This document shows positions 404 to 16,029 of a stretch of 29,596 bases of DNA, piece after piece. The stretch covers positions 1 through 29,596 of the IMG/VR virus record IMGVR_UViG_3300025896_001176, one strand, 5' to 3'. Position 1 is the first letter of the stretch, and each line of letters begins with the position of its first letter. Position numbers and translations under genes: made by a program. The notes beneath the pieces were generated by a model. That model was not told the origin of the DNA and ran no database searches. It saw only the letters and a program-made list of their open reading frames with translations. Source of the DNA: a virus.

Positions 404-469
404 GAAGCCGGGAAGTGCTGATACACGACCCGGCCTCTGACCACATCATTGTTTATAAGGAACAACAGC
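395..469 (+). promoter_or_regulatory. HNH cassette leader 1: -10 box, stem-loop and RBS
   Basis: TAAAAT (395-400) is followed by a stem-loop in which GCCGGG (407-412) pairs with CCCGGC (429-434) and an inner GTG (415-417) pairs with CAC (424-426). AAGGA (457-461) is the ribosome binding site for the ATG at 470. The same order and spacing recur before the other two HNH genes (23868-23943 and 25367-25436). The 24 nt at 442-465 match 23915-23938 at 23 positions. No clear -35 box is visible. The structure may limit expression, as leader hairpins do for T4 homing endonucleases; that role is inferred. Confidence 0.6.
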
Positions 470-1270
470 ATGGCTACCACCAATGTTACCGCAGAGCGTC
501 TGCGTGAATTACTTGACTACAACCCCAACACCGGAGTTCTTCGATGGAGAGTTTCAGTTGGAAGTCGGGCCAAAGCTGGCGACATCACTGGGTCAAAAAC
601 CGCCCAGGGCCGTCTCACAATTCGTGTTGATGGGCGTGCAATTTTTGCCCACCACATAGCATGGATAGTGACCAACGGTGCGCTACCTGACGGAGTTTTA
701 AGGCACCTAAATGGTGACACGACAGACAACAGAATCGCCAATCTGGTCGCCGTCACAAGGAGAGATGTCATTTCACATCTTGTCTCACGCCGGATTGACG
801 CAGCAAATGTCCACGACATATTTGAGTACACCGAAGGTCGAATTTTGTGGAAAACAACTACGTCCGGGCGACGCATTTCCGGGCGTGAGGCTGGCTATAT
901 AAGCGATGATGGCTATATCGTTGTCGAAGTCAAGAATAAGGCGACAGGCGCGCATCGCATTGTTTGGCTGATGCATCATGGGGCGTGGCCTGACGGGGAG
1001 ATTGACCATATCAACGGAATCCGCAATGACAACCGCATCGAGAACTTACGCGATGTCGGCCACAAAACAAACTCCGAAAACAGAAGGGGGGCCAGTACGC
1101 GCTCAATTACTGGAATCCTTGGTGTTTCGGCTTTCAAAGGTGGAAAATTTCGTGCGCGCATAAGGACAAGCGGGCGGGTTGTGTCTCTTGGACTCTTTGA
1201 CACCACAGAACAAGCTCATGCAGCCTACGTCAATGCGAAACGCAGGCTGCATGTCGGATGCACGCTTTAG
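470..1270 (+). CDS. HNH homing endonuclease with tandem HNH units and C-terminal AP2 domain
   Basis: The 266-aa protein starts at ATG 470; its first residues align with the third HNH protein (TAERLRELLDYNP) and AAGGA lies 8 nt upstream, so an upstream in-frame ATG at 449 is rejected. Unit 1 (about residues 8-93) has a degenerate core, HHIAW...RHLNG...DNRIANL. Unit 2 (about 107-195) keeps the usual pattern, HRIVW...DHINGIRNDNRIENLRDV. An AP2-like DNA-binding domain follows (about 214-262, ILGVSAFKGGKFRARI...LGLFDTTEQAHAAY). Family knowledge: such proteins nick or cut DNA and spread as selfish genes. It lies opposite to the late operon; its TAG (1268-1270) overlaps the giant gene's TAA (1267-1269) tail-to-tail. 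The doubled HNH unit is unusual next to its two 166-aa relatives. Confidence 0.88.
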   Translation: MATTNVTAERLRELLDYNPNTGVLRWRVSVGSRAKAGDITGSKTAQGRLTIRVDGRAIFAHHIAWIVTNGALPDGVLRHLNGDTTDNRIANLVAVTRRDVISHLVSRRIDAANVHDIFEYTEGRILWKTTTSGRRISGREAGYISDDGYIVVEVKNKATGAHRIVWLMHHGAWPDGEIDHINGIRNDNRIENLRDVGHKTNSENRRGASTRSITGILGVSAFKGGKFRARIRTSGRVVSLGLFDTTEQAHAAYVNAKRRLHVGCTL

Positions 1271-4200
1271 TCCGCCACAGCAAACCGCCCAGCGTCAATC
1301 GCATCCTGACGCTTCTTGGGCAGGTACACCCCTTGCTCTGCTTGCTCGATGCGCTTGCGCCGCGCCCGAACACTTTGCATCAGGTTGATTGGCGTGATCC
1401 GTGCCTTCGGGTTCTTTTCGTTGAACCGTGCAATGTCCTTGCGCGCATCTGCCATTCCCTCTTGATCCTTGGCCATGGCTGCCAGCGCGAACTGGCGCGT
1501 CAGGCTGGAGCGTCTTTCCTGAATGGCCCGGTCGGCGCTGTAAATGGCGCTCTTGCCTTCTTGCGCCAATCTGGCTTCCGACGGCGAGAATCCGAGTGCC
1601 TGACCAGCCACGCCGGCAGCGCCAATTTCCTCATTGATGGCCACGCCTGTTTTGTCGATGTTGCCTTCTGTGCCGTAGCGGTACGCCTTCAGTGGCGCGC
1701 GCAGGGCCGATGGAAGCATGGATTCAAGGCCGCGTGCATACTGGCCGTTTGCTATGTCCTGCATCCCCTTGCCTGCGTTGACGGCAATGCCAGCCACCGG
1801 CCCGAGTGCTGCAGCCATCCAGTTCTTGACCGCATCGGCACCCTCCAGCCCCTCCTGCACATCAGGCAACAGCAGTTTGTCCAGGCCCACCCGGCCCGAA
1901 ATGTCCCATGGTGTCAGTCGTGACAGGCCGTGCGCGAACACTTCAGCGGGTTTTTGCCCCAGCGTGTCGGCCAGCATGTTCTGCAAAGCCGCCTTGGCGT
2001 CCCATGGTTCATCGTCATCGCCTCCGATCATGGAGGCCGCAGACAGCAGCATCCCCACCATTGGCAATCCGAGTGCACCAGCGGCCAGCGCGTGCGATAC
2101 CAGCAGCCCGCCCAACGCCTTGCGTGCCTCGGCTCGTTCTGCTGGTGTGGCGCCATTCAGCGACAACTGCGCCTGACGGGTCAATGTGTAAACCATGTTC
2201 TGGGCATACTGCTTGAACAGCAGCACCACCTTGGCGACATTGCCCTGCATCACGCGCGGCCTGTTGCTTGCCGAATAGTCAAAATGTCCGTCATAGGTCG
2301 CCTTCACCGCTTGGTCGTAAGCCGACAAGTGGCCAGCGCCTGATTCTTTGGCCAGCCGGTACGCCGCCACAAAGGTGACTTGCCGGTTGAACTTTTCGGC
2401 ATGGTGAAACAGGAAGCTGGCTGCTTTCATCACTGGCCTGATCTTGGCAGATACCTTGGAATCTTCGCCTTGCGCGATACCTGCCAGGTCGTGCGCCATC
2501 GTCACATCAATCACCCCGGCGCGCACCGCCTCGTTATAGGCTTCAAGATCTTCACCACTCAGCGCCTTGCTGATGTCGTTCTTGTTGCCGGCTGCCTGCC
2601 GTGAGGCATTCATCAGCGCCGCAGAGGCTTTTCCAAACCCCCACTTGGCGCCCATCACAGGGTAAGCCACCAGTGCCGTTTGCGACAAGTTCACCAGCGC
2701 CGAAGCGGGAGACAAGCCCAAATGGAACACAAACCCGAAACTGGTCAGTGCCGTGGATATGGGGTTGGTCGCCGGGTTCATCATCGAATCATGGCGCTTC
2801 ACCATCTCGTCAACCACCTGTTGCGCCTTGACAGAGTCAAATGCCGCCACGTCAGCCTTGCTGACAATGTGCTCCTGCATGTCGTCCAGCTTGGTTTGCA
2901 GTTGGTCGGCATACCGCAGCTTGGCCAGATACCGGGCGCCGTGGAACATGTTTTGCGCAAAGGCTCGGCGTGCGTCTTGGCTGAAACCCGGTGTGCCCTT
3001 GCGGTGAATGCCATGCTTGGCCCATGATAGGTCGGGCAGCGCGGCCAGGTAAAGCTGGCTGATGGCGTCGGTCAGTTCGTCGCCCGCATTGGTCTTGTCC
3101 AGCGTCTCGAACAGGTCAGCCATGAAGCCCCGGCCTACCCCGTCGCGCGCAGCATTGAACTCTTTGTCCTTGAGTACCTTGCCCACCTTGTAACCACCCG
3201 ATGCCGGGAACTTGGCAAGCAGAATCTTGCGCGTGGCCTCGGCCTCGTTCATGGTTTCACTGCGGTTGGCGCTCAACACGTTGCCCGAACTGTCCTTGAC
3301 GATGGTCACGTATTGGCCGAAGCGCGCCAGTGGGAAATAGACGCCCTTCACCTTCTTGAAGAACTCGCCGTCCATCTTGGTCAGCAGTGCCTGTTTCTTG
3401 GCTGAACTCATTTCACTGCGCATGATGCGCTCTCGGATGGCGTCACGCACCTTGTCATTGTGGCCGGAGTACATGTCGCGCGCCTTGCGGTAGGCTGCTT
3501 TGGCTTCTGGTGTCAGCCTTGTAAAGCCGTCGCGCAGTGCGTCATAGAAATTCTGGTCGTCGCCATCGACAAACGCCTTGTCAGGGTCGATCTGTGCCAG
3601 AGTTGCGTCGTGCATCAATTCGGCCAGTTGGCGCTCATCCTTGAGTTTGCCCCAGCCGGTCGCCAGCGCGTCGGCCTCTGCGCCGGATTCGTTCTTGTCG
3701 GCATCCATTTGCGCCACCATGCGGCTGTAACTTTCCATTTGCGGGAGGTCGCCAGCGTACAAGTCAACCAGTTGCCTGCGCCCAAGGGTTTGCAGGCCAA
3801 GTCCACGGAAGTCTGCCAGGCGGTTGCCAAACTGGTGCTTCAGGTCGGTGACAGTTGCTTTGTTCAGGCCATCGCGCACGTTGTTGGCTGCGTTATTCAG
3901 CGCATGGCCCAGTCCTTGGCTGAACTTCACGCCGCCACTATCCGGCGCGGTGGATTCATTCGGTAAAAGCTTGTTCAGTTTTCTTTTGGCTACATCAAGG
4001 CGTTCAAGTACTGCCGCATGGCCCGGGGATTTCTCCAATTTCTTGGATTCGCGCTCGATGTTGTCCATTGCGTCCATGATGTCTGCCAACTTGAGATCAA
4101 TAGCTTTTACAACATCAGCATCAGAATCTAGTAAAAGTTTTTTTGGTTTGATCGAATCGTAGCCATCACTATCAACACCAACTTTGTCAGCAAGAAATAC

Positions 4201-7200
4201 ATGAGGGGTTGACCGGCTGTCTTGCATGCGCAAAAAACCGTACTCAGAAAGCCTTGATGCTATGTCTACCGGGTGCATGTCTCCGGTTATCTCAATAGAC
4301 GAAAGACCTGAATGGGTAGCACCAGATGTAAAGTCTCTGCTGGTTTGATTTCCAGTCAAGTCATTTTTTGCAGGTGGCGACCACCGGATGAAGACGCTCC
4401 CATGCTTCTCTGCCAATGCTTCAACTTGAGAAACAAAATTGATGCCAGTTTCGATGACACGCCTCTTTGCAGCGCCCGGTGTGTTGTCATCGGCAGAGCG
4501 CCCGCCTTGGTTGCCGACGACATCGTTGTTCGTCATGGGGTCATTTGTACCACGCACGTTGTTAGCTGCGTTATTCAGCGCATGGCCTAGCCCTTGGCTG
4601 AACTTCACGCCGCCACTATCCGGCGCGGTGGGCTCCGAGAATGGCAAGGCGTATTCCTGTTTGACAGGGCCATTCATTACCCCGGCCCACGCCGAACGCA
4701 TGTCAGCCAGTGCAACAGGGTTCGATGCGTTGTCAACAAGGTAGTTGGTCATGCCGCGCAGCATTGACCTTGCGCCCTCATACCGCTGACGGCCAAGGAA
4801 TATGTCCTCCACCATTGGCGACAGTGGCCTTCTTCCCTTGGTGCTTGGGTCCATCCTCAGACCCATCTCGCGCTGGAATGTCTCAAAGTTTGCCCGGCCA
4901 AGTGAGTCAACTTTGGCAATCAGGAACCTGCCGTCATCTCGGTTGATGCGGATAGTTGCTTTTGGCTTTTCTGCTGTGAGGTCGATGTCGATGTATTCAA
5001 CCTCCCATCCAGCATCCCGCATTACCCGGTTCAACTTGGATACCGCAACATTTGAGGTTGATGATGGTTGCGCGGCAATTTCAGAGCGCCCGCCTAGTGC
5101 CTGCAGGTACTCCTGATACATGGACGAGCCATCTTCTGAAACCTCAATCACCTCATGGGGGGCTGGAACCCATCCATCTTGAATCTCCATGCCGTTTGGT
5201 CGGTCTTTCCATGCGGATTTAGGAGCAAGGTAAACAATGTCACCCTTCTTCGGCATGAACTTCTTGTCGAAGATGTTTGTTGGAGCGCCTCCCCGATACG
5301 GCGGCATGGCATTGACGTTGACGCCCTTTTTGAAACCGTCTTTCAAGATTGATTCGCGCGTTGCCTTTGCGGAACCATCCCTGCCGCGCAAGTCAATGTG
5401 CTGAGCGTACTGGCTGTAAAACTGCTTTTCTGTTAGCGGCTTGCTCGTCATGGGGTCATTTGTACCACGACCACCAGCCGACAACCGCGTCTGCGCCGTC
5501 ATCTCTGTCGCCTGCGTTCCGTACTTGGATTGGGTTTTCGCCAGATTCTTGTCGCCACCCATGGATGCACGCACCATATCTGTCACGAACTTTTCAGCAT
5601 CGTTTTGCGTCAGTTTGCGTATCCAAGCACCAAAATTGTCCGGAAATCCAAGGCGATCCGCTGCACCAGCAAACCATGACAGCATCGTTTTGACAAGTCC
5701 GGGCATCTTGCGTGCGCCAATCCCGTCATTGGCCGATAGTTCCTCACTGATCATCGCCATCGCTTCCTCGGCTGCCAGTGCTTCATAGGCAGCAGAAGGC
5801 ATCTTGGCTGCTTTTTCCACGCCTTCAGGTGAAGCCTTCCACTCGCGCACGTATTTCTGCACCAGAACATTGCGCGAGAACTGGCGCAGCATCGCTGCAT
5901 AATCTTCCGCTGGAATGACTTTTTGCAAACCCAAGTGAAACAACTCATGGAACAGCGTGACGTAGGCGTCCCCGATGGACTCGATGTTGTCAGCGAACAG
6001 GTAGATTCGCCCATCAATGAGCGCGCCCTTCGGCTTGGTCCCGGCTGGTACCCGAAGGCCCGCGATTTGGCTTGGGTTTCCAATTACCGAGACTGGGATG
6101 ACGTTCTTTGCGACTTGAAGAACCTTGTCAACAAGCCTTTGAATCTGGTCAGGCGTTGGTTTGGGGCCAAATGATGCTGGGGAAAGCAGGCCCTGGCTGA
6201 ATTTAGCTCCGTCTAGCGGCGCGGCAGGCGCAGCTGCCGGGGAAGCAGACGCTGCAGCGGCCCGGGCTTGCAACTGGTCTTGAATGTCGTCCAGCCGGGT
6301 CAGCGCCGCGTCCAGTTCGTCGGCCTGCTTGAATTGCTCATTGGCGGCTTCGCGGTAAGTCGGGATGTTGGCCGTGGCATCCTTCAGGTTGCGCTCCATG
6401 TAGTCAATCCCGTACCTGTCGGTTCGGATTGAGTCCAATTTGTCCACCAGTCGCTCCATGGCGGCGCGAAGCGTCGACGTCAGCACTGTGACTGATGTGC
6501 CTTTTGTGTGCTTCTCCGGTGTGAGGTCGTAGGCAATGGCGATTGTCTCGATGCCACCTTCATAGGGCACCTTGACGGACAGATCCACAAAGGAGCCAAA
6601 GTTGGTCTTTTCTGTTTTCACAGACAAAGGGAAGCCATACAGGCTTCCAACAGGGGTTGTCGGAATATCGGTGAACTCACTGCCAATCAGTCGGCGCAAC
6701 TCGCGCGCCACAGCGGTGCGTCGGATCACCTTGTTGCCAGCAATCTCGGCCACAAAAGAGTTCACGTCGCCCATTTTCTCGGTAATGGCATCTTGAACAC
6801 CAGCCTCGGACGTATAACTCTTTCCGTCAACGTCCAATGAAAACACTCGTTTAGAGTCGCCCTCCTTGGCGATCTTGATGGTTTCCTCTGCGTGGGCCAG
6901 TGCAGCCTCAAGGCCCGTGAATTCTTTCTCGCCAACATTGACGCGGCGTGAATACTTGTCATCAGTGGCCTCTTGAAAGGCTTTACCGATCGGGACCATC
7001 AGGGATTTCTTCTTGGCAATCTCCCCGGGCAGTTTTTCCACGTCACGCTCGGCGCGGCGCAACGAATCCCCTGCCGACTCCACACGCCGGTTATACGACC
7101 GGCGCCTGCGGTACAGTTCTTCGATAACGGTATTGATCTTGATGCGCTCCAGCATCAGCGGGTCGCCGGATGCAATGGCGGCAATTTCAGCCATGTCAAT

Positions 7201-10200
7201 CGCGGCGTCGTCGTCAAAGTCCATTTCAAACTCGCCGTCGTAGTAGCGAATGCCATTCACCATGCGCAGCTTGGTCGAGTTCAAATCCCACATCTTGGCG
7301 TCGATTGAGCGCTCGGTGACGTAGGCCATGATTTCCACTTCAAAGGTTTGGCCGTATTTCTCCAGAAGCAGGTTGCCCTGACGAATGATGCGCCCTTCGC
7401 GTTGTTCGATGTCGCTTGGCTTCCATGTCACGTCGACGTGATGAAGGCCCACCAGGCGCTCCTGCACGTTCATTCCGGCGCCCATGCGCTGGCTTGACCC
7501 AAACAAGAACCGGATCGTGCCGTCGTTGACTGCCTCGAACAGTGCTTTTTTCTGGGCGTCAGTTGTGAAGTTCTGGATGAAGGCGATTTGCTCTTTTGGC
7601 ACACCCTTGGCAATCAGGCCGTCGGCCATGTGCTGGTACGCATTCCAGCCGCCAGCCTGTGCCGCGCGCAATTCGTCAATCTCTTGCGAGTCAAACTTCT
7701 CCATGGCCTCGATGGCCTCGCGCTGGCCAGCCTCGTCGCCGTTGGCATTGGCCTCAGTGAGTTTGGCGCGCAGGGCGTCATATTCCTTGATTTGCTTGTC
7801 GTCCCCTTGCGCCTTTGGAACTGAGCGATCCAAGAAAATCAACTGCGTGCCCTTGTCGGCCTCGAATGCCTTATATAAGCGGAACGCCTCGTCTACCACC
7901 TTGTCTAGCTTGCCCCCGGGCTCGTCCGTCAGCGCCCGGTCCCACACCTTGGCGTGCAGTGCCAGCTTGCGAGCCTTGTCCATCAGGCGAAGTCGGGCAA
8001 TGTTGCGCTCCTTCACGTCCTCGATGTTGGGCAGGCCGTTGTAACCGGCGATCAGTTCATCAATCAGCAGTTGCTGTGTGGGCGTCGGCTTGGCCACTAC
8101 GGTACGGCGACCGCCATCTTTGACGTTTGGCAGCGGGAACACCTTGCCCGGGTTGTCTTCTGCGTACCATGCCTTGATGTCGTCGTTCGTCACCACGTCG
8201 GCCACGGAGTAGTAACCGTCCATGAGTGAGCGCATGTTCGACCAGTTGCGGCCCAAGCGGTTCACCACTTTCAGGCCATCACCGGCTTCGGTGGGTTCTG
8301 GCTTCTCGGACGCCTGCACAAACTGAGCGCGGAAGGCGTCGAAGTGCTCCAGGCCGTTTTCACGCAGCACGTCGGGCGCCAGGTAACGCATGATGGTGTA
8401 CATCTCCACCGCGCTGTTGCTGATGGGCGTGCCTGTCAGGAACACCGCGGAGCCATTGGTTTCGTGCAAGATTCGCATCTTGGTGTACAGGTCAAAGGCT
8501 TTCTGTGACCCAGCAGCCGGGCCAAGCCCGCGCACGTCGGTCAGTTTGGTGCTGTAGGTCAGGTTCTTGAACTCATGCGACTCATCAACGGTCAGGTCAT
8601 CAATGCCCATTTGCTCAAAGGTCAGAAGTTGGTCCTTGCCAGCCTTGCCGCGCACCACATCCATGCGGTTTTCCAGCTTGAGAATCAGGGCTTCTGCGGC
8701 CTTGACCGACAAGGGCTTGAAGCGCTGGCCGGGTTCGGCGTCGTCCTCGGCTTCTTTCAGTGCATCCTGCGCCACGCGCAACTCGTCATTGATGAAGCGT
8801 TCTTCGGTTTCCGGGGAAATGCCAATGAACTTGAAAGACGAATGCGGAACAATCACCAGATCCCAATCCCCTGCGGCGATCTTGGCAAACAGGCGGCGCC
8901 GGTTCTTTGGCTCCAGGTCTTTGACGCCAGCGGCCAAAATCTTTGCGCCCGGGTAAAGCCGGTAGGCCTGCGTCGACCACTCCGACACCAAGTGGTTCGG
9001 CACCACAATGGTGGGCTTGTTGGACAGGCCCATGCGCTTGCGCTCCATGGCGCGCGAAATGCCGGTGAAGGTCTTGCCTGCCCCCACGGCATGGTCGTAC
9101 ATGGTGAAGCGGTCCACAATCCCGCGCCAGATGGCGTTGATCTGGTTGCGCCGAAAGGCAATGATGCTGTCTGGCACCTTGCCCGGGAAACTCATGTGTG
9201 AACCGTCATACTGCCGGTTTACCCGGGTGTTGTACAGGTCATTGAACAGCTTGACAAGCTCTTGGCGGCGGTCGCCATCCTTGAAAATCCAGTTGTCAAA
9301 TTCCTCGATGATTTCTTTCTTCTTGTCGATGGCGCTTTGCGTCTCGGTTTCATTCAGAACGCGCGGGTCATCCTTTCCGCCACCGTCATAAACGGCAATT
9401 CGTCGGCTGTTCAGGATATCGTTCAGCAACTCCACTGCCGGGTAGCGGCCGGTGCCCCATTTGGACACGTCAACTGCAGATGACCCGGGCGCGTGCACCT
9501 CGAAGGTGTTGGAAATTTTGGAGAACGTCACCGTGGCCTTGCGCCCCAGCAGCCCCTGCACAAAGTCTGCGTAGGTGGCAGGCGGCACCCAGGATGCGCC
9601 CATGTGCGCCGTCACCTTGTCAGATGTCCATGGCTCTGGCTGCACTTTCATCAGGGCTTCGACGTTGCGCTTCATGCCTGTGTCTTGTGCTGCAATCAGC
9701 TTTTTGCGCACATTGCCAGACAGGTACTGGTTCTTTTCCGTGACCTCGTTGGTCTCCGGGTCCAGGTAGGCCATGGGTGAATCACCCTCGGTCAACTCAG
9801 TCAGCGCTTCTTCTTCTGTAATCTTGCGCAGTTCAGCCACACGGGCCACGTCGATGCGGCCAGACTCACCAAGCACAATGGCCACGGCATCCGACACGCT
9901 GGCCGCGTCGTTCTTGCGCTCTGGTGGGATGGCCACGGCACGGGTCAGGATGGCATTCTGTTCAGCCCGGGCGGCACTTGGCTTGACACCTCGCTTGACA
10001 GCGGCAGCCAGTGTGACGGCGGGCCGGAACTTCAGTTCCAGCGACAACATCAGGCCTTCATCTGGCATTTCCGAAATGATGGTGGCGTTTTTCTGCTCGC
10101 TGATGTAACCGTGATCGGCTACGAATGCCTCATAGGCGGCGCGCAACTTGACCCGGTTGGCCTCCATGGGTCCGGTTGCTGCGGAATTTGTCTCCAGATT

Positions 10201-13200
10201 GATCTGCTCCACATACAGTTCACGAATGGCCACCAGCTTTTGCAGCTTGGCGAAGCCGTCCGCCCCCAGACGCAGGCCGTTCGGGATGTCGCTCTCGTTG
10301 GCAAACACCTCGCGCACGTACACGTTTCTGCCAAGGGTTGGCTTTCCTGTTTTTGGGTTGATCTTGACGCCTACTTTGACTTTCTCGCCCTTCTCGTCAA
10401 GTTTCGCCACCTCTTTGAACCACTTGCCCTCCATGTTCATGGACAGTTGCGCAGACCATGGGGTGCTGGCGTCAATGGTGTTTTTGGACACGATGGTCTT
10501 GCCGTCCAAGCTCACACGCTCCACGATTTCAGTCAGGGCGCCGCTCTCGTCGTAATAGATGCTGCCAATTTCACGACCTGATGCCATGATGGACAGGGAT
10601 TCGCCCAGTGCCTTGTGCATGGCCTGCGTGCGCTGGTCGATTTCCTCCGAGACTGGCACAGGCTTGATGCCTGGCAGGTAGGCCATCATGTCATCGAGCT
10701 TGGCTGCCAACTCACTCGCGGGCAACTTCACATCAATGTCGCCGCCGAACTGCATCGAGCCCGAGCGGTCCATCACACCCGCCACCATCTGCGGATTTTT
10801 GGCAAAGTATTGGCTGATGACCATGGGCTCGCCGCCCAATGGGTCAGGAACCTTGGTTGTTTCCGTCCAGGCCAATGCCGCATCGAGCTTGGCGGCACGC
10901 ACCATGCGCTCCTGGCGGTCAGCGTAGGCTTCTTTGGCTGGCACCTTGGCGGTGCGCTCGTTCATGGCGAACTGCAGTGCCGCCTGATCTGCCGTGGTGC
11001 GCTTTTTCAAAAACAGAATGTCTGTCACCACGTCGGTGCCTGCATTGCCCTTGAATGCAGACCCAGGCAGGCGAATCGCCCCCACCAGTTCAGCCTGAAT
11101 CGCCAGGGTTTCGCGTGCGCCCTTCTCTTGTGCGTCCATCAGGTAGCGAGACACCACCATGACCTGCAGCCCTTCCGGCTTCACGGCATCCATGCTGCCC
11201 AGGAAGAACTGGTTGTGAATGCTCTTGCCGTTGAGCTTGGGGTTGTACTGGAAGCGCAAATCAATCGCGCCAAATGGCGGGTTGCCAATGGCCAGATCGA
11301 AAACACCTTCAGGCAGCGGCAGTTTTTCAAAGCCGGATGCCACGATGTTGGCCTGTGGGTACAGTGCCGATGCAATGCGCGCGGTGATGCTATCCAGCTC
11401 AATGCCGGTCACATAACTGCCTTGGCGCATGTACTCTGGCATCATGCCAATGAAGTTGCCTGAACCCACCGAAGGCTCCAGCACCATGCCGCCATTGAAC
11501 CCCAGGCGCTTGGCTGCGCGCCACATGAAGCCCGTCACAGTCTCGCTGGTGTAGTGCGCGTTTGGTGTCGACGCAGATGCCGCCTTCAGTTCTTTGGCTG
11601 TCAGCAGTGATTCCAGTTCGGCTACTTCATTGGTCCAGTCGGCCTTGACTACGCCGGTGACACGGTTGCGGAATGCGTTGGCCAAGCCGCCCCAGCCAAC
11701 GTAGCGGGCCAGCACGCGCTGTTCTTCGGCAGTGGCACGGCGATGCTCGGACTCAATCAGTTTGAGTGCACGAATGGCGGCAATGTTGTCTTTGTATTTG
11801 GTGACTTCACCGCCCGAACCTAGCTTCAGGTCGGGGGTGATGGTGAAATTGGCAGCCGGTACGGCCGCTGGAACTACTTCGCCTGATTCTGTGAATAGGC
11901 CTGGCGCTCCTGCTCGTGAGCCTCGCTTGCTTCCCGCAGCCAGCTTGACATCGGGCGACCCACTGTCCGCTGGTATTCTTCCTCCATCTCCCTTGATTCC
12001 TCGTCCTCGTCCTGTTCCTCCGGTGGCAACAGGATCAGAGTCGGAAGAACCATTTCCTCCGCTTCGTCCAGGCGTGCCCCGTTGGTCATCAGTTGACGAA
12101 TTTCCTTTTCGGCGGCTCGTGCTGCCAGATAGAGCTCCGCGTCCACCCGATCCTCGGCTACCAGTTCCGCCCACTTTTGCGGCAGGAACTCCATCCAGTG
12201 CGCTGCCGCCTTGCTTTTCAGTTCCTGAATCATTTGTCGCGTCCTTTGTTTCAATATCTGCCTTTTCAACAGACTTGTCAAGTTCTTCCAGTGAGTCAAA
12301 CGCGGCCACCTCGCGTTTAGGTGTGACTGCCTTATCCTTGTGCCGGCCAGACGTGGCAATGTAGGCGCCTTGCAACGTCTCGAACGGTATCGCGTCAGCG
12401 GTTTCCTGATCAATCCCGCTGGCAATGAACTCGCGCACGTAGCGTACAGCCTTCTGAAACGTCACAGCGCCCAAGTCCATCGCGCCGTCGAACAACTCAA
12501 TGACGATTGGCAGGATCTGCTGTTCTTCCTCCTGCGTCCAGTTCATACGGGTGTTCTTGCCAGCCAGCGCGGCCAGCTTTCCCAGGGCATTGAACATCTT
12601 AGCTTTGGCGGCTTTTTCCTTGTCGCTCAGGGTGTCTGGCTTGGGCGCTTCCGGTGCTCTGGCCGGCTTGCCGTCATAAGTCGGATTGGCCTTTGCCTCG
12701 TACGACCGCATTTCAGCGTCAAGCTCGTCGTTCTGGCCTTCGTCTGCTGGCGGCTGTGCCATCGGCGATTCGCGCTCTATCTTCGCTGCCATTGCCGCAA
12801 TCTTGGCATCAGAGCGGGTTTCTGCATCGTCAGCTACCAGCTTATCAAACTGGTCTTGTCCAAGCAGCACTGAACGCTCGCCCAATGTATTCGGGTTGCG
12901 CAATGCGCGAATCTTGTTCTTGGTAGTGTCAATGCCATCAATGGAATATGTATTGCCATTTCCCATCAGCAGCGTGTCACCGGGGGATTTCCCGTTTAGG
13001 CTAACTTTCGCCTCTGCCACTTCCGGCGCATTGACTGGAACTTGCTTCGCCGTCCCGCGCGCCGTAGCATTTGGAAACGGTTTTCCATCAGCACGCAGCT
13101 CGGTATGAGGCACATCAGCGGCGGCAGCAGGCTTTACCTTGTCCAATGGACCTGCCTTCAATGCCTTAGCGTCAGGCTGCGTTGAGTGTGTTCGTGCATC

Positions 13201-16029
13201 CTGCGGCTTGCCAATGCGTACCCATTCGCCGTTCACCTTCTTGACAGCGTGAACTTTGACACTCCATCCACCGCCGTCCTCTTTGGGTGGGGTGTAGCTG
13301 ATGACTTCATCGGTTCCGCCGTAGCTCTGCACGATGTTGCCAGGCGTGAAGTAGTCAGCGCGCTCTTGGCGGGCTTGTTCAATGCGCTGCTTGACTGGCG
13401 TTGTCTTTGCAACTGGCGCGGCTGGCGGTAGCTGCGGCGTGACCGGCTTCTTCTCTGGCTTGGCTACTTCTGCTTCGCCCGCGGCTGCCACGCCGGCATC
13501 TGCTGCGGGCTTGTCAGTTGCGACTGTTGCTCCTTGGGCTGGTTGTTCCGAACTTGTTTGCTTGGCTTCTGGGGCTTTCTCAAGTTTGCTCTCCGTGGGT
13601 TGTGATTTGGCAACGATGTCCCAGCGCTTGGCGCCGGTCTTGACTGCCTGGTGCGTGTCTTTCAGGCCGTTCTTGGCAATGAACTCCTGGGCTTTGAGTG
13701 GCTTGCTGAAGTAGGCTGTACCTTTGGCGATGCGCTCAATGGCCTTGGCGCGCTTCTCGGGCAGGCCGAACAGGTGCTCAACGTCAGCTTTGGCTTGCTC
13801 TTTCTTTGTGGGTGCAGTCTGCGTCGGCTGGGATGCCCCGGTCCCTTCGCCCATTACAGGCTGTGCAGGCTGCGTAAGTGGTTCACTTGCTACGTTTTCG
13901 GTAGCTACTGACGCTTTATCTACGAGGGCTTGAGGAGGCTCTACCCCTCTACCTTCCACGGTTACACTTCCCGTTGCGGGTAGTTCCGAAGAGGCGGCTG
14001 CATCGCCTGCCACAGCTTGCGGCGCTTCTCCTGGCGCTTGAGTTGGCGGGGTGTCGGTTCCTTGTGCTGCGTCTTTGACATTGGACATTCCCCGCGCGGT
14101 ATTGATACCAAACCCCGGGCCCGCAACCGCGTTCGTCTTGGTTCCAAGCGTAGTTGGTTGAGGCCTGTTCGCGGCCTGAATGCGTGCTAGATTGGCTGCT
14201 TTTGTGCCAACTGGCTCAGTGCTTTCGCTCGGGCTTGTGGAGACATCCGGCGCAGCGCCAACAGAATTTGCATCACTCGCTTGCGGGCTGCTGGGTTGGC
14301 TGGCAATTGCATCTTGGGTTTCCTCGGGTGTTGCGCCCAGTTGGGCAAAGAACTCGTCATCGCTCAGGTGATCGAAGTCTGCCAGTACATTGGCAATCGG
14401 GACCACGGCAGCCACAGTTTCGCCAGGAGTTTCATCCTTGGCTTCTCCGGCTTGTGTGATGGCGTCCATGTAGGCTTTGTAGGCCTGCTCGTCCTGCTGC
14501 TGGAGCATCGCTGCGGTCTGTGCACGGTACTCGTCTTGCGCAGACTTCACCTGGTCGGCATCGGACTCGACTGGCATCTGTCCAATTGCTGGCTGACTCA
14601 CTCCACTGTCAACGGCCAGGATCGCAGCATTGGTCAGCGATGGCGCGGCGGTGGGTGTCAGGCCCATGGCTTCGGATGGCTTGGGCGGCGCGGGCGGCAC
14701 AACAGGCGGCGTACCACCGTTGGGCGGCACATCGCCATTCAGCCCGCTTTGAAAGTCGCTCAGTTCATCGTCCAGCAGGTCACCGATCTGCCCTGCGGCT
14801 TCGTGGCGCTGCTGTGCCGTGGCTTGGCCCTCTGGTGCTGACAGTGTGGCCCATGCGGCATCTACAGCCTTTGTTCTGTCGTCTGCTTCGTAGCCTTGGC
14901 GGTCTTTCTTCCAGCCTGCATCACTTTGCATGTAGCCGTCAATGGTCGATACCAGTTCAGGCAGTTTGCTGCCGTAGTAGTCGCTGTCCTCGCGCTGCTT
15001 TTCGCTGGCATTCCAAAGCTCGTCAATCCATGCGGTAGGCGTGCTTGGCGGTGTCACTTGTGACACGGGCGGCTGTGCTTCGGGTGTCACTTGTGACACT
15101 TCGGGGGCTGGCGTCGGTGCGGGTTGTTGGGCTGGTGCTTGACGATCCAGCGCACCAAACACAGCACCGGGCCCGGCAGAGGCGAGCGCTTCCAGGGTGG
15201 CATTGCTGGCCACGTTGTCCCATGTTCCAGCCTCGTACCCGGCGCGTTGTGCGGCCAGGTTGGCGGCGACTTGTTCCTGTCCACCTTGAGCGGCTTCCAG
15301 CGGCATTTCGCCCAGCATACCCATGCCAGCGCGACCAAGTACGCCACGCTCGGCACCGGTGGCCACAGCTTTCGTCACCGGCTTGCCAAATGCGCCACGC
15401 ACCATGCCGCCAGCGATCCGACTGACACCTGTCATTGCATCAGCAGCACCCAGCGCACCGCCAAGCGCGATTTGGTCGGTGTTCTTTCCGTCGTAGGCTT
15501 GTGCCTGAGTGGCCTCTTCTTCGGTTCCACCGCGCTTCTTGATTTCGTCGTAAATTGCGCCCTTGGCCGTGCCTGCGCCCATGGCTACGCCAGTTGCCAC
15601 GGCACCCGGCAGGCCAGCGAGTCCACCGGCAAGCGCCGGGACGATGGAGCCCAAGCCTTGCACTGCGGTCTGCACCGGGGCCACGCCGAATGCGCGGGCA
15701 CCAGCTTTCACACCTTCCCACAAACCCTGCCCTTTGGCAGAGTCCATGATGGCCGACTGCTCCTGCTGGTCAGCCTTGGCTTCTGGGCTCAGGTAGTCAT
15801 TGATCACTTCATTGGCACTGCCAAGCGCGCCAGATACCGCATTGCCTGCGCCGGCCGCATCAGCAATGGCCTTGGTCGCACCAACTGCACCGCTGGCAAA
15901 GCCCAAACCTTTGTCGGCAACTTTGCGCAGCATGCCTGCTGGTTTTGGGGCTTCCCCTGTTGCATCTTCGTAGCTGAATGAACCGGTCTGAGGCGCAGCG
16001 GCCTCCTCGTAGGAGAATGGTTTAGACAC
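1267..16029 (-). CDS. Giant polyvalent protein: adenine methylase, SNF2-like helicase, zincin peptidase, LPD38-like C-terminus
   Basis: This 4920-aa protein starts with GTG at 16029 (AAGGAC upstream), 9 nt after the previous stop. In order: paired FSYEE/FSYED motifs; Gly/Ala-rich hydrophobic stretches (41-70, 114-160); Pro/Ala linkers with small domains to about 1260; a Gly/Ser/Arg-rich linker (about 1266-1385); a DarB-type N6-adenine methylase (YVGWGGL 1443, motif I VGSGNF 1521, NPPF 1583); an SNF2-like helicase (GAGKT 2316, DESH 2482, TGTP 2532, EQREGRIIRQG 2875); a coiled-coil-like region near 2970-3010; a zinc metallopeptidase (HELFH 3361); two repeat-bracketed modules (3529-3800, 3834-4026); and an LPD38-like region with hydrophobic segments (about 4420-4475, 4645-4670). 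P1 DarB and polyvalent proteins are packaged and injected to protect incoming DNA; that role is inferred here. KFSQG occurs at 3276, 3809 and 4035 and may mark linkers or cleavage sites. Confidence 0.93.
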   Translation of the reverse strand: MSKPFSYEEAAAPQTGSFSYEDATGEAPKPAGMLRKVADKGLGFASGAVGATKAIADAAGAGNAVSGALGSANEVINDYLSPEAKADQQEQSAIMDSAKGQGLWEGVKAGARAFGVAPVQTAVQGLGSIVPALAGGLAGLPGAVATGVAMGAGTAKGAIYDEIKKRGGTEEEATQAQAYDGKNTDQIALGGALGAADAMTGVSRIAGGMVRGAFGKPVTKAVATGAERGVLGRAGMGMLGEMPLEAAQGGQEQVAANLAAQRAGYEAGTWDNVASNATLEALASAGPGAVFGALDRQAPAQQPAPTPAPEVSQVTPEAQPPVSQVTPPSTPTAWIDELWNASEKQREDSDYYGSKLPELVSTIDGYMQSDAGWKKDRQGYEADDRTKAVDAAWATLSAPEGQATAQQRHEAAGQIGDLLDDELSDFQSGLNGDVPPNGGTPPVVPPAPPKPSEAMGLTPTAAPSLTNAAILAVDSGVSQPAIGQMPVESDADQVKSAQDEYRAQTAAMLQQQDEQAYKAYMDAITQAGEAKDETPGETVAAVVPIANVLADFDHLSDDEFFAQLGATPEETQDAIASQPSSPQASDANSVGAAPDVSTSPSESTEPVGTKAANLARIQAANRPQPTTLGTKTNAVAGPGFGINTARGMSNVKDAAQGTDTPPTQAPGEAPQAVAGDAAASSELPATGSVTVEGRGVEPPQALVDKASVATENVASEPLTQPAQPVMGEGTGASQPTQTAPTKKEQAKADVEHLFGLPEKRAKAIERIAKGTAYFSKPLKAQEFIAKNGLKDTHQAVKTGAKRWDIVAKSQPTESKLEKAPEAKQTSSEQPAQGATVATDKPAADAGVAAAGEAEVAKPEKKPVTPQLPPAAPVAKTTPVKQRIEQARQERADYFTPGNIVQSYGGTDEVISYTPPKEDGGGWSVKVHAVKKVNGEWVRIGKPQDARTHSTQPDAKALKAGPLDKVKPAAAADVPHTELRADGKPFPNATARGTAKQVPVNAPEVAEAKVSLNGKSPGDTLLMGNGNTYSIDGIDTTKNKIRALRNPNTLGERSVLLGQDQFDKLVADDAETRSDAKIAAMAAKIERESPMAQPPADEGQNDELDAEMRSYEAKANPTYDGKPARAPEAPKPDTLSDKEKAAKAKMFNALGKLAALAGKNTRMNWTQEEEQQILPIVIELFDGAMDLGAVTFQKAVRYVREFIASGIDQETADAIPFETLQGAYIATSGRHKDKAVTPKREVAAFDSLEELDKSVEKADIETKDATNDSGTEKQGGSALDGVPAAKVGGTGSRGSGGRGALSGSTSRRKGNSSTDDQRGTPGRSGGNGSSDSDPVATGGTGRGRGIKGDGGRIPADSGSPDVKLAAGSKRGSRAGAPGLFTESGEVVPAAVPAANFTITPDLKLGSGGEVTKYKDNIAAIRALKLIESEHRRATAEEQRVLARYVGWGGLANAFRNRVTGVVKADWTNEVAELESLLTAKELKAASASTPNAHYTSETVTGFMWRAAKRLGFNGGMVLEPSVGSGNFIGMMPEYMRQGSYVTGIELDSITARIASALYPQANIVASGFEKLPLPEGVFDLAIGNPPFGAIDLRFQYNPKLNGKSIHNQFFLGSMDAVKPEGLQVMVVSRYLMDAQEKGARETLAIQAELVGAIRLPGSAFKGNAGTDVVTDILFLKKRTTADQAALQFAMNERTAKVPAKEAYADRQERMVRAAKLDAALAWTETTKVPDPLGGEPMVISQYFAKNPQMVAGVMDRSGSMQFGGDIDVKLPASELAAKLDDMMAYLPGIKPVPVSEEIDQRTQAMHKALGESLSIMASGREIGSIYYDESGALTEIVERVSLDGKTIVSKNTIDASTPWSAQLSMNMEGKWFKEVAKLDEKGEKVKVGVKINPKTGKPTLGRNVYVREVFANESDIPNGLRLGADGFAKLQKLVAIRELYVEQINLETNSAATGPMEANRVKLRAAYEAFVADHGYISEQKNATIISEMPDEGLMLSLELKFRPAVTLAAAVKRGVKPSAARAEQNAILTRAVAIPPERKNDAASVSDAVAIVLGESGRIDVARVAELRKITEEEALTELTEGDSPMAYLDPETNEVTEKNQYLSGNVRKKLIAAQDTGMKRNVEALMKVQPEPWTSDKVTAHMGASWVPPATYADFVQGLLGRKATVTFSKISNTFEVHAPGSSAVDVSKWGTGRYPAVELLNDILNSRRIAVYDGGGKDDPRVLNETETQSAIDKKKEIIEEFDNWIFKDGDRRQELVKLFNDLYNTRVNRQYDGSHMSFPGKVPDSIIAFRRNQINAIWRGIVDRFTMYDHAVGAGKTFTGISRAMERKRMGLSNKPTIVVPNHLVSEWSTQAYRLYPGAKILAAGVKDLEPKNRRRLFAKIAAGDWDLVIVPHSSFKFIGISPETEERFINDELRVAQDALKEAEDDAEPGQRFKPLSVKAAEALILKLENRMDVVRGKAGKDQLLTFEQMGIDDLTVDESHEFKNLTYSTKLTDVRGLGPAAGSQKAFDLYTKMRILHETNGSAVFLTGTPISNSAVEMYTIMRYLAPDVLRENGLEHFDAFRAQFVQASEKPEPTEAGDGLKVVNRLGRNWSNMRSLMDGYYSVADVVTNDDIKAWYAEDNPGKVFPLPNVKDGGRRTVVAKPTPTQQLLIDELIAGYNGLPNIEDVKERNIARLRLMDKARKLALHAKVWDRALTDEPGGKLDKVVDEAFRLYKAFEADKGTQLIFLDRSVPKAQGDDKQIKEYDALRAKLTEANANGDEAGQREAIEAMEKFDSQEIDELRAAQAGGWNAYQHMADGLIAKGVPKEQIAFIQNFTTDAQKKALFEAVNDGTIRFLFGSSQRMGAGMNVQERLVGLHHVDVTWKPSDIEQREGRIIRQGNLLLEKYGQTFEVEIMAYVTERSIDAKMWDLNSTKLRMVNGIRYYDGEFEMDFDDDAAIDMAEIAAIASGDPLMLERIKINTVIEELYRRRRSYNRRVESAGDSLRRAERDVEKLPGEIAKKKSLMVPIGKAFQEATDDKYSRRVNVGEKEFTGLEAALAHAEETIKIAKEGDSKRVFSLDVDGKSYTSEAGVQDAITEKMGDVNSFVAEIAGNKVIRRTAVARELRRLIGSEFTDIPTTPVGSLYGFPLSVKTEKTNFGSFVDLSVKVPYEGGIETIAIAYDLTPEKHTKGTSVTVLTSTLRAAMERLVDKLDSIRTDRYGIDYMERNLKDATANIPTYREAANEQFKQADELDAALTRLDDIQDQLQARAAAASASPAAAPAAPLDGAKFSQGLLSPASFGPKPTPDQIQRLVDKVLQVAKNVIPVSVIGNPSQIAGLRVPAGTKPKGALIDGRIYLFADNIESIGDAYVTLFHELFHLGLQKVIPAEDYAAMLRQFSRNVLVQKYVREWKASPEGVEKAAKMPSAAYEALAAEEAMAMISEELSANDGIGARKMPGLVKTMLSWFAGAADRLGFPDNFGAWIRKLTQNDAEKFVTDMVRASMGGDKNLAKTQSKYGTQATEMTAQTRLSAGGRGTNDPMTSKPLTEKQFYSQYAQHIDLRGRDGSAKATRESILKDGFKKGVNVNAMPPYRGGAPTNIFDKKFMPKKGDIVYLAPKSAWKDRPNGMEIQDGWVPAPHEVIEVSEDGSSMYQEYLQALGGRSEIAAQPSSTSNVAVSKLNRVMRDAGWEVEYIDIDLTAEKPKATIRINRDDGRFLIAKVDSLGRANFETFQREMGLRMDPSTKGRRPLSPMVEDIFLGRQRYEGARSMLRGMTNYLVDNASNPVALADMRSAWAGVMNGPVKQEYALPFSEPTAPDSGGVKFSQGLGHALNNAANNVRGTNDPMTNNDVVGNQGGRSADDNTPGAAKRRVIETGINFVSQVEALAEKHGSVFIRWSPPAKNDLTGNQTSRDFTSGATHSGLSSIEITGDMHPVDIASRLSEYGFLRMQDSRSTPHVFLADKVGVDSDGYDSIKPKKLLLDSDADVVKAIDLKLADIMDAMDNIERESKKLEKSPGHAAVLERLDVAKRKLNKLLPNESTAPDSGGVKFSQGLGHALNNAANNVRDGLNKATVTDLKHQFGNRLADFRGLGLQTLGRRQLVDLYAGDLPQMESYSRMVAQMDADKNESGAEADALATGWGKLKDERQLAELMHDATLAQIDPDKAFVDGDDQNFYDALRDGFTRLTPEAKAAYRKARDMYSGHNDKVRDAIRERIMRSEMSSAKKQALLTKMDGEFFKKVKGVYFPLARFGQYVTIVKDSSGNVLSANRSETMNEAEATRKILLAKFPASGGYKVGKVLKDKEFNAARDGVGRGFMADLFETLDKTNAGDELTDAISQLYLAALPDLSWAKHGIHRKGTPGFSQDARRAFAQNMFHGARYLAKLRYADQLQTKLDDMQEHIVSKADVAAFDSVKAQQVVDEMVKRHDSMMNPATNPISTALTSFGFVFHLGLSPASALVNLSQTALVAYPVMGAKWGFGKASAALMNASRQAAGNKNDISKALSGEDLEAYNEAVRAGVIDVTMAHDLAGIAQGEDSKVSAKIRPVMKAASFLFHHAEKFNRQVTFVAAYRLAKESGAGHLSAYDQAVKATYDGHFDYSASNRPRVMQGNVAKVVLLFKQYAQNMVYTLTRQAQLSLNGATPAERAEARKALGGLLVSHALAAGALGLPMVGMLLSAASMIGGDDDEPWDAKAALQNMLADTLGQKPAEVFAHGLSRLTPWDISGRVGLDKLLLPDVQEGLEGADAVKNWMAAALGPVAGIAVNAGKGMQDIANGQYARGLESMLPSALRAPLKAYRYGTEGNIDKTGVAINEEIGAAGVAGQALGFSPSEARLAQEGKSAIYSADRAIQERRSSLTRQFALAAMAKDQEGMADARKDIARFNEKNPKARITPINLMQSVRARRKRIEQAEQGVYLPKKRQDAIDAGRFAVAD
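3875..3953 (-). repeat. 79-bp direct repeat, copy B (module border in the giant gene)
   Basis: This stretch matches 4553-4631 at 76 of 79 positions, 678 bp away in the same orientation. It encodes the border peptide that begins TAPDSGG, contains KFSQG and ends NNAANNVR (residues 4027-4052 of the giant protein). The two copies bracket an AT-rich module, as expected from a tandem duplication followed by replacement of the inner part, or from recombination-driven insertion. Confidence 0.9.
3952..4530 (-). other. Module 2 of the giant protein: AT-rich, repeat-bracketed insert
   Basis: This encodes residues 3834-4026, between the RGTNDPMT border and the TAPDSGG border. The protein contains EKHGSVFIRWSPP, a SRDFTSGATHSGLSSIEI stretch and a Lys/Glu-rich, probably coiled-coil end. 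I do not recognise the family. Composition differs from the rest of the gene: in 4081-4140 only 20 of 60 bases are G or C, against clearly G+C-rich flanks. With the 79-bp repeat on both sides this suggests a horizontally acquired module. Confidence 0.6.
4530..4554 (-). repeat. 25-bp direct repeat encoding the RGTNDPMT border, copy 2
   Basis: This is identical to 5445-5469 and in the same orientation. On the minus strand it encodes RGTNDPMT (residues 3826-3833), directly after the 26-residue TAPDSGG...NNVR border. Two separate modules therefore begin with the same peptide. Confidence 0.9.
4553..4631 (-). repeat. 79-bp direct repeat, copy A (module border in the giant gene)
   Basis: Partner of 3875-3953 (76 of 79 positions identical). 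It encodes residues 3801-3826 of the giant protein and closes module 1; its last bases join the 25-bp repeat that opens module 2. The three mismatches leave the peptide unchanged, which points to a recent duplication or to conversion between copies. Confidence 0.9.
4630..5445 (-). other. Module 1 of the giant protein: repeat-bracketed domain of unknown function
   Basis: This encodes residues 3529-3800, opened by RGTNDPMT and closed by the TAPDSGG border. The first half reads like a compact enzyme or binding domain: QHIDLRGRDG, ESILKDGFKKG, KKGDIVYLAPKSAW, then PHEVIEV. The H...I..DGF...V.L pattern loosely recalls ADP-ribosyltransferase-type folds, which are known in polyvalent proteins, but the match is too loose to assign. 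The second half (KLNRVMRDAGWEVEYIDIDL...) is a mixed alpha/beta region without a recognised motif. Confidence 0.5.
5445..5469 (-). repeat. 25-bp direct repeat encoding the RGTNDPMT border, copy 1
   Basis: Identical partner of 4530-4554. It encodes residues 3521-3528 of the giant protein and marks the N-terminal edge of module 1, downstream of the metallopeptidase domain. Confidence 0.9.
11874..12233 (-). CDS. Candidate overlapping gene (119 aa) nested in the giant gene
   Basis: In the frame shifted by one base from the giant gene, ATG at 12233 begins MIQELKSKAAAHWMEFLPQK and ends with a stop at 11874. AAGGA lies 8 nt upstream. The product looks like a real soluble, acidic, helical protein (WAELVAEDRVDAELYLAARA, then EEMVLPTLILLPPEEQDEDEE), whereas the same frame upstream of this ATG is Arg-rich nonsense. 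Over exactly this span the giant frame (residues about 1266-1385) becomes Gly/Ser/Arg-rich low complexity, the expected by-product of overprinting. Function unknown. The alternative is that both patterns are chance effects of a G+C-rich linker. Its product would be co-transcribed with the giant protein and translated separately. Confidence 0.6.
   Translation of the reverse strand: MIQELKSKAAAHWMEFLPQKWAELVAEDRVDAELYLAARAAEKEIRQLMTNGARLDEAEEMVLPTLILLPPEEQDEDEESREMEEEYQRTVGRPMSSWLREASEAHEQERQAYSQNQAK
13962..14081 (-). CDS. Possible second nested micro-ORF (39 aa) in the giant gene
   Basis: An out-of-frame ATG at 14081, with GGGGA 7 nt upstream, opens a 39-residue peptide, MSKTQHKEPTPRQLKRQEKR followed by RKLWQAMQPPLRNYPQREV. 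It is strongly basic and lies over a Pro/Ala/Gly-rich linker of the giant protein. This parallels the nested gene at 11874-12233, but the ORF is short enough to occur by chance, so I give it only as a possibility. Confidence 0.2.
   Translation of the reverse strand: MSKTQHKEPTPRQLKRQEKRRKLWQAMQPPLRNYPQREV
15051..15066. repeat. 16-bp palindrome, copy 1
   Basis: GTGTCACTTGTGACAC has arms GTGTCAC/GTGACAC around TT and repeats exactly at 15084-15099. On the minus strand each copy encodes VSQVT in a Pro-rich linker of the giant protein. Imperfect versions occur near 16891 and 16962 in the next gene. It may reflect a peptide repeat or a protein-binding site; the sequence alone cannot decide. Confidence 0.6.
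15084..15099. repeat. 16-bp palindrome, copy 2
   Basis: Exact second copy of GTGTCACTTGTGACAC, 33 bp from the first. It encodes the second VSQVT in the linker that precedes the TAWIDELW segment of the giant protein. Confidence 0.6.

Follow-up and report, generated by a model that had tools for sequence, protein, structure and literature searches.

A conserved small reading frame nested in the +1 frame beneath the Gly/Ser/Arg-rich linker of a giant DarB-like phage protein

The methylase–helicase dyad and the DarB protein of phage P1 have been described in a survey of polyvalent proteins (PMC5512222), and the giant protein of phage JC1 has been detected in virions (PMC9144972). A text search of the survey found no mention of overlaps or of TnpV, and the gene that we describe here is not annotated in the JC1 record. 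Moreover, no earlier report of it was found in the open-access literature searched, subscription papers and preprints being outside the scope of that search. We have analyzed a stretch of viral DNA of 29,596 nucleotides (IMG/VR record IMGVR_UViG_3300025896_001176, positions 1 to 29,596; hereafter the window), in which a giant gene of the DarB-like type carries a second, small reading frame.

The giant gene and the frame nested in its linker

The host gene occupies positions 1267..16029 on the minus strand and, judging by the ORF call and by its phage relatives, codes for a DarB-like polyvalent protein of 4920 codons. Its methylase region is matched by 61 phage records, many of which are annotated as DarB-like (antirestriction) or as DNA methylase. 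As in DarB-like proteins, an adenine methylase (11107..11472, minus strand; weak Pfam matches to Eco57I and Methyltransf_11) is followed within one protein by an SNF2 helicase (SNF2/Helicase_C, 7375..8445, minus strand; also weak Pfam matches), and an LPD39 domain is strongly matched at 3331..3852 on the same strand (PF18858, E 2.9e-44). The methylase–SNF2 module is shared with DarB of phage P1 and the DarB-like polyvalent proteins (PMC5512222); P1 DarB, however, starts almost directly with the methylase region, and neither the linker nor the nested gene described below is present there. Two further observations concern the giant gene and its surroundings. A 79-nt direct repeat lies inside the giant gene (3875-3953 and 4553-4631, 96% identical, 678 nt apart), which suggests that a segment near LPD39 has been duplicated. 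An HNH endonuclease-like gene (452-1267, plus strand; phrog_99, E 7e-84) is convergent with the 3' end of the giant gene.

A first-pass annotation, made from the sequence alone, had claimed that an overlapping gene of 119 aa lies under the low-complexity linker of the giant, that the switch in composition at giant residues 1266-1385 coincides with this frame, and that its ATG is preceded by a well-placed ribosome-binding motif. All three claims held. The nested gene (119 aa plus stop) occupies 11874..12233 on the minus strand, with its ATG at 12233..12231 and its stop codon at 11876..11874, shortly before the methylase region, and is read in +1 relative to the giant (16029-12233 = 3796, which is 1 mod 3). 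The ribosome-binding-site-like motif AAAGGA (12242..12247, minus strand) ends 8 nt before the ATG, the sequence upstream of the start being AAACAAAGGACGCGACAA-ATG. In the giant frame the same DNA (11874..12233, minus strand) codes for the Gly/Ser/Arg-rich linker, residues 1266-1385, in which the summed fraction of these three residues is 0.51 as against a mean of 0.20 for the giant; the 119-residue window richest in them in the entire giant begins exactly at residue 1266. The nested protein itself carries a net charge of -14. Together with the comparative evidence below, we regard it as very probable that the overlapping gene is real and translated, although translation is inferred in the absence of expression data, and that annotation has missed a gene whose product is a small helical protein, the helical fold being predicted by a structural model.

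Conservation of the nested frame and the action of selection

The openness of the +1 frame is, on its own, weak evidence for a gene. When the giant was redrawn with synonymous codons, this frame stayed open over the nested span in 18% of the trials, and the earlier argument that the coincidence is poorly explained by chance is therefore weak if taken alone. The actual +1 open run, of 195 codons, is the longest in the giant, the second longest being 112. What settles the status of the gene is that the ORF, its start, the ribosome-binding motif and the frame are conserved between species, and that substitutions follow the nested frame.

Homology searches with the 119-aa sequence, proposed as a check together with the first-pass annotation, and with its relatives returned members in phages, prophages and metagenome viruses; a weak similarity to TnpV is seen for other nested proteins (see below). 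The tblastn matches of the 119-aa sequence fall in the DarB-like genes of Atu_ph08, POI1126 and PBC5, and a frame check placed all three in the +1 frame relative to the methylase. Searches with the nested proteins gave 31 IMG/VR loci, 11 overlapping ones and 19 loci in bacterial genomes, and a diverged form of the protein was found at 8 more loci in Bcep22-like phages. Dozens of relatives thus carry this ORF upstream of the methylase and in the same relative frame; wherever the nested ORF and the methylase could both be located, the former is in +1 of the latter. At no locus checked is the giant frame interrupted within the nested span. The nested starts are ATG, with a few GTG, and 52 of 53 are preceded by a Shine–Dalgarno match of four bases or longer, as against 15% of 3,577 control ATGs taken from the same frame. 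Several loci have a +1-frame stop codon just 2-6 codons ahead of the nested start, which leaves little room for an origin by frameshifting.

The gene is nevertheless not universal, since some related giants have no detected nested relative: none was seen in MT835857 or in a Streptococcus SNF2 gene. A plasmid search with the nested consensus gave no match, and a nucleotide search with the nested span in phages gave no convincing one. Standalone relatives of the nested protein exist (L068 and L084). At L084 (Pseudidiomarina sediminum, 3974-8295) the nested-type domain forms the N-terminus of a 262-aa protein whose C-terminal part is hydrophobic, and the gene adjoins one for an AAA ATPase and a McrC-type (PF10117) gene; the neighborhood could be a defense island.

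The PBC5 record (L004) deserves separate description. Near 11920 its frame shifts, just upstream of the nested gene and outside the nested span, such that the N-terminal half of the giant continues into the nested domain, while a separate annotation covers the methylase part. The change could be a sequencing error or a real mutation. The resulting fusion may explain why PHROG 938 ("endolysin") ends in the nested domain; an endolysin identity was considered and rejected, the match to PHROG 938 being best explained by PBC5 orf33, the C-terminus of which carries the nested domain.

Selection within the overlap acts on the nested frame. In the flanks, the giant shows the usual pattern of coding sequence, with most change at third codon positions; within the nested span it is the first positions of the giant, which are the wobble positions of the nested frame, that change most, while the third positions are held. 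Between the window and L017, for instance, the rates inside the span at giant positions 1/2/3 are 14.3/2.5/2.5%. The nested-frame dN/dS is 0.07-0.46 inside the span and about 0.7-1.1 in most flanks, whereas for the giant frame the same ratio, where computable, is 0.47-1.71 inside and 0.00-0.79 outside. These ratios were obtained by counting changes by their effect in both frames; the count is a simple one without correction for multiple hits, and sequence pairs within one group are not independent. The pattern is, however, repeated in separate groups, namely rhizobial phages, Erwinia, Vibrio, Bcep22-like phages and gut elements. One pair (L021/L032) is an exception, with no codon-position flip and about equal change at the three positions. 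The comparison of codon-position substitution rates in both frames across related phages, which the first-pass annotation had named as a check, thus gives a signal that follows the nested frame inside the span. The outcome that it had named as refuting the gene, a linker conserved in giant proteins while the nested frame is disrupted, is the reverse of the pattern observed: in 10 of 10 pairs tested, the linker is less conserved than the nested protein that shares its DNA. Within the overlap, then, the nested frame is under purifying selection, and the giant linker is near-neutral at the protein level yet kept open. When sequences were redrawn with the nested protein held fixed, chance left the giant frame open in 0-8% of trials, apart from 37% in one Bcep22-like case. 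Because the giant frame is rarely open by chance and the nested frame is selected, neither frame is idle: what counts in the nested one is its sequence, and in the giant one, over this span, mainly that it stays open.

Weak similarity to TnpV and a possible fold match to DUF1896 proteins

TnpV is a small protein of Tn4451-like transposons and Firmicutes mobile elements; that of Tn4451 has been postulated to be Xis-like, with a role in excision (PMC3158075). It resembles the nested protein in its similar size, its helical core and a weak sequence similarity, and differs from it in an N-terminal strand hairpin (in the model) and in being encoded mostly by standalone genes. Matches to the Pfam TnpV family (PF14198) at E<=1 were obtained for 14 of 23 nested proteins (best E 5.9e-6), though not for the nested protein of the window, and the best relative, at 26.7 bits, is below the gathering score of 27. 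Scored against a TnpV profile, three nested proteins reach 17-19 bits, compared with shuffled maxima of 11.0 and 14.6 in two runs, and a profile–profile comparison of the nested family with TnpV gave a P of 2.3e-4 but a probability of only 45%. The sequence link is modest, and we describe the nested protein as TnpV-like rather than as a TnpV member.

Genuine TnpV, in gut phage-like contigs and in IMG/VR viruses, is itself found nested, again in the +1 frame, in giants of this type, where it overlies low-complexity giant sequence (in those cases looked at) and lies about 1.6-3.8 kb upstream of the methylase. Among 33 IMG/VR TnpV loci, 6 are nested, all in the +1 frame, and 27 are standalone; at 4 of the nested loci the giant ORF could be followed to the methylase, and at the other 2 no methylase lies within the available sequence. 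Most TnpV genes have no adjoining methylase–SNF2 gene within the available sequence, and a partnership with this enzyme is therefore not general for the TnpV family. At one locus (L103, MT836741) the giant seems to be split, with TnpV nested in an upstream ORF at 2-2821 and the methylase running from 2694 onward in a different, overlapping frame. Two roles were considered and rejected. The models consist of helices only, or of helices plus a short hairpin, and show no winged-helix fold, contrary to what an Xis-like DNA binder would have. A DNA mimic, as might be suspected of a small acidic protein in an anti-restriction gene, was discarded because strong acidity is not conserved, the charge being about -2 to -15 in the nested family and -1 to -5 in TnpV.

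The AlphaFold model of the nested protein has a four-helix N-terminal domain, with pLDDT of about 84-91 over residues 1-60. Structure comparison against the PDB placed 2apl at the top (Z 8.5, 1.8 A over 63 residues), the next entry having Z 3.3. This entry is PG0816 of Porphyromonas gingivalis, a relative of the DUF1896 (PF08989) proteins (E 2e-28). The match covers the N-terminal 71 residues of the model, and among helical bundles a Z of this size may be fortuitous. A Foldseek search of the PDB gave nothing significant, and neither direction of a comparison between the nested family and the DUF1896 sequence profiles gave a significant match. For the TnpV model, VIA-align gave Z values of 5 or below, mainly to histone-fold chains, without 2apl in the list; the top BFVD row was Q8W6J4_2 (prob 0.87, E 1.2), whose length would fit one half of PBC5 orf33, a possibility on which we do not rely, the name not being given.

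It is because the helical-bundle score could be a matter of chance that the gene context of DUF1896 was examined. In all seven loci, from 6 Bacteroidota genomes, a DUF1896 gene lies directly 5' of an unfused DarB-like methylase–SNF2 gene; the two overlap by 11-41 nt in 6 loci and are 38 nt apart in one, the overlap lengths resting on a mechanical choice of start codon. DUF1896 is thus possibly like the nested gene in the predicted fold of the N-terminal part; it is like it in standing beside the 5' end of a methylase–SNF2 gene, and unlike it in being a separate gene with only a short overlap, in coding for a longer protein and in having no detectable sequence similarity. Chance does not readily explain why a fold match would lead to the gene upstream of the same type of enzyme; the link rests on fold and context. 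Ulx of phage P1, encoded next to darB, did not match the family profiles.

Origin, role and rival explanations

The first-pass annotation had left open whether a small gene was captured between polyvalent parts that fused through it or was overprinted. The evidence favors capture, because the nested frame is constrained, standalone relatives exist and the look-alike family lies 5' of the unfused enzyme. In the history that we propose, the small gene would once have stood alone beside the 5' end of a methylase–SNF2 gene, as DUF1896 still does in Bacteroidota, and upstream polyvalent domains would have become fused to the methylase–SNF2 part by reading through it in another frame. The Gly/Ser/Arg linker would then be the newcomer, its odd composition a by-product of the DNA of an older protein being read in the other frame. 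The standalone relatives L068 and L084 favor a small gene older than the linker, and we think this order of events likely. The nested protein would be made by internal initiation on the mRNA of the giant, with an ATG and a ribosome-binding site of its own, and it may be a small helical partner of the methylase–SNF2 module, as an adaptor, a chaperone or a holder of inactivity. Made beside the nascent giant, it could meet the enzyme before virion loading or DNA transfer. While the account as a whole, of a gene with its own start and ribosome-binding site, trapped by fusion and coding for a helical partner of the enzyme, is in our judgment likely, it has no expression data behind it, and the partner role is inferred from position and could as well be wrong as right.

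Other readings have to be weighed against this one. Under classic overprinting, the giant and its flexible linker would be older and the nested protein would have arisen de novo in the other frame of the linker. A low-complexity, change-tolerant segment is indeed the usual setting for such an event; however, TnpV-like relatives occur as standalone genes, the fold look-alike DUF1896 is encoded separately, 5' of the same enzyme, and the giant frame over the nested gene is near-neutral, and we find overprinting unlikely. Still less credible is a programmed frameshift from the giant into the +1 frame that would yield an N-terminal half ending in the small domain. The PBC5 record does have an N-terminal half running in frame into the domain, but it is a single record and may reflect a sequencing error or mutation, while the nested start and ribosome-binding motif are conserved and, in several loci, a +1 stop stands 2-6 codons before the start. 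A chance ORF without function can draw on the 18% of synonymous redraws in which the +1 frame is open; across many lineages, however, the sequence, start and motif are conserved and the substitution pattern holds, which all but rules it out.

More difficult to dismiss is the possibility that the gene is real and its product independent of the giant, acting for example in excision, as for TnpV of Tn4451, its location being a case of hitch-hiking. Most TnpV genes are standalone, and an Xis-like role has been postulated (PMC3158075). Against this stand the position of DUF1896 directly 5' of the methylase–SNF2 gene at every one of the seven loci, the occurrence of the nested forms in giants with the same enzyme, and models without a winged-helix fold. 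Independence remains possible. The capture reading can, on the other hand, be extended: the TnpV-like, DUF1896-like and nested forms might all represent an ancient partner of DarB-type methylase–SNF2 machines, a view toward which we lean slightly less than away from it. That this partner has been kept beside the enzyme across phyla, either directly upstream or swallowed in the +1 frame, is a proposal we likewise put forward with more reserve than conviction. If true, it would mean an unrecognized regulator, chaperone or inhibitor of DarB-type anti-restriction machines.

Other giants also have +1 ORFs in the same place (L011, 4651-4923; L015, 4466-4741; L016, 4621-4974; L064, 3561-3950; L065, 3717-3917), their similarity to the nested family being slight or undetectable. 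For the same-place nested ORFs of phages 8P, Y7, BKO1-TP3 and Dfl-JY45 kinship to the family is not shown, and that of USP25 matches it weakly (7.6e-4). Conceivably, the linker is a repeated site for trapped genes.

In any event, a conserved and unannotated gene now joins the inventory of a large class of phages in which the giant anti-restriction proteins are little understood, and the arrangement predicts a partner for DarB-type enzymes. Standard annotation tends to omit genes nested in another frame. A close parallel in form is Rz1 embedded in Rz in phage lysis cassettes (e.g. that of JC1, PMC9144972), where, as here, a whole small gene lies in another frame of the same strand with its own start. 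Rz and Rz1 are, however, two lysis partners of similar size, whereas here a 0.36-kb gene lies within a 14.8-kb gene, and the host frame over the nested gene is near-neutral. The locus is, in this respect, an unusually clear case of a fusion seemingly made through an intact gene in another frame, in which a new linker would have been shaped by an older gene.
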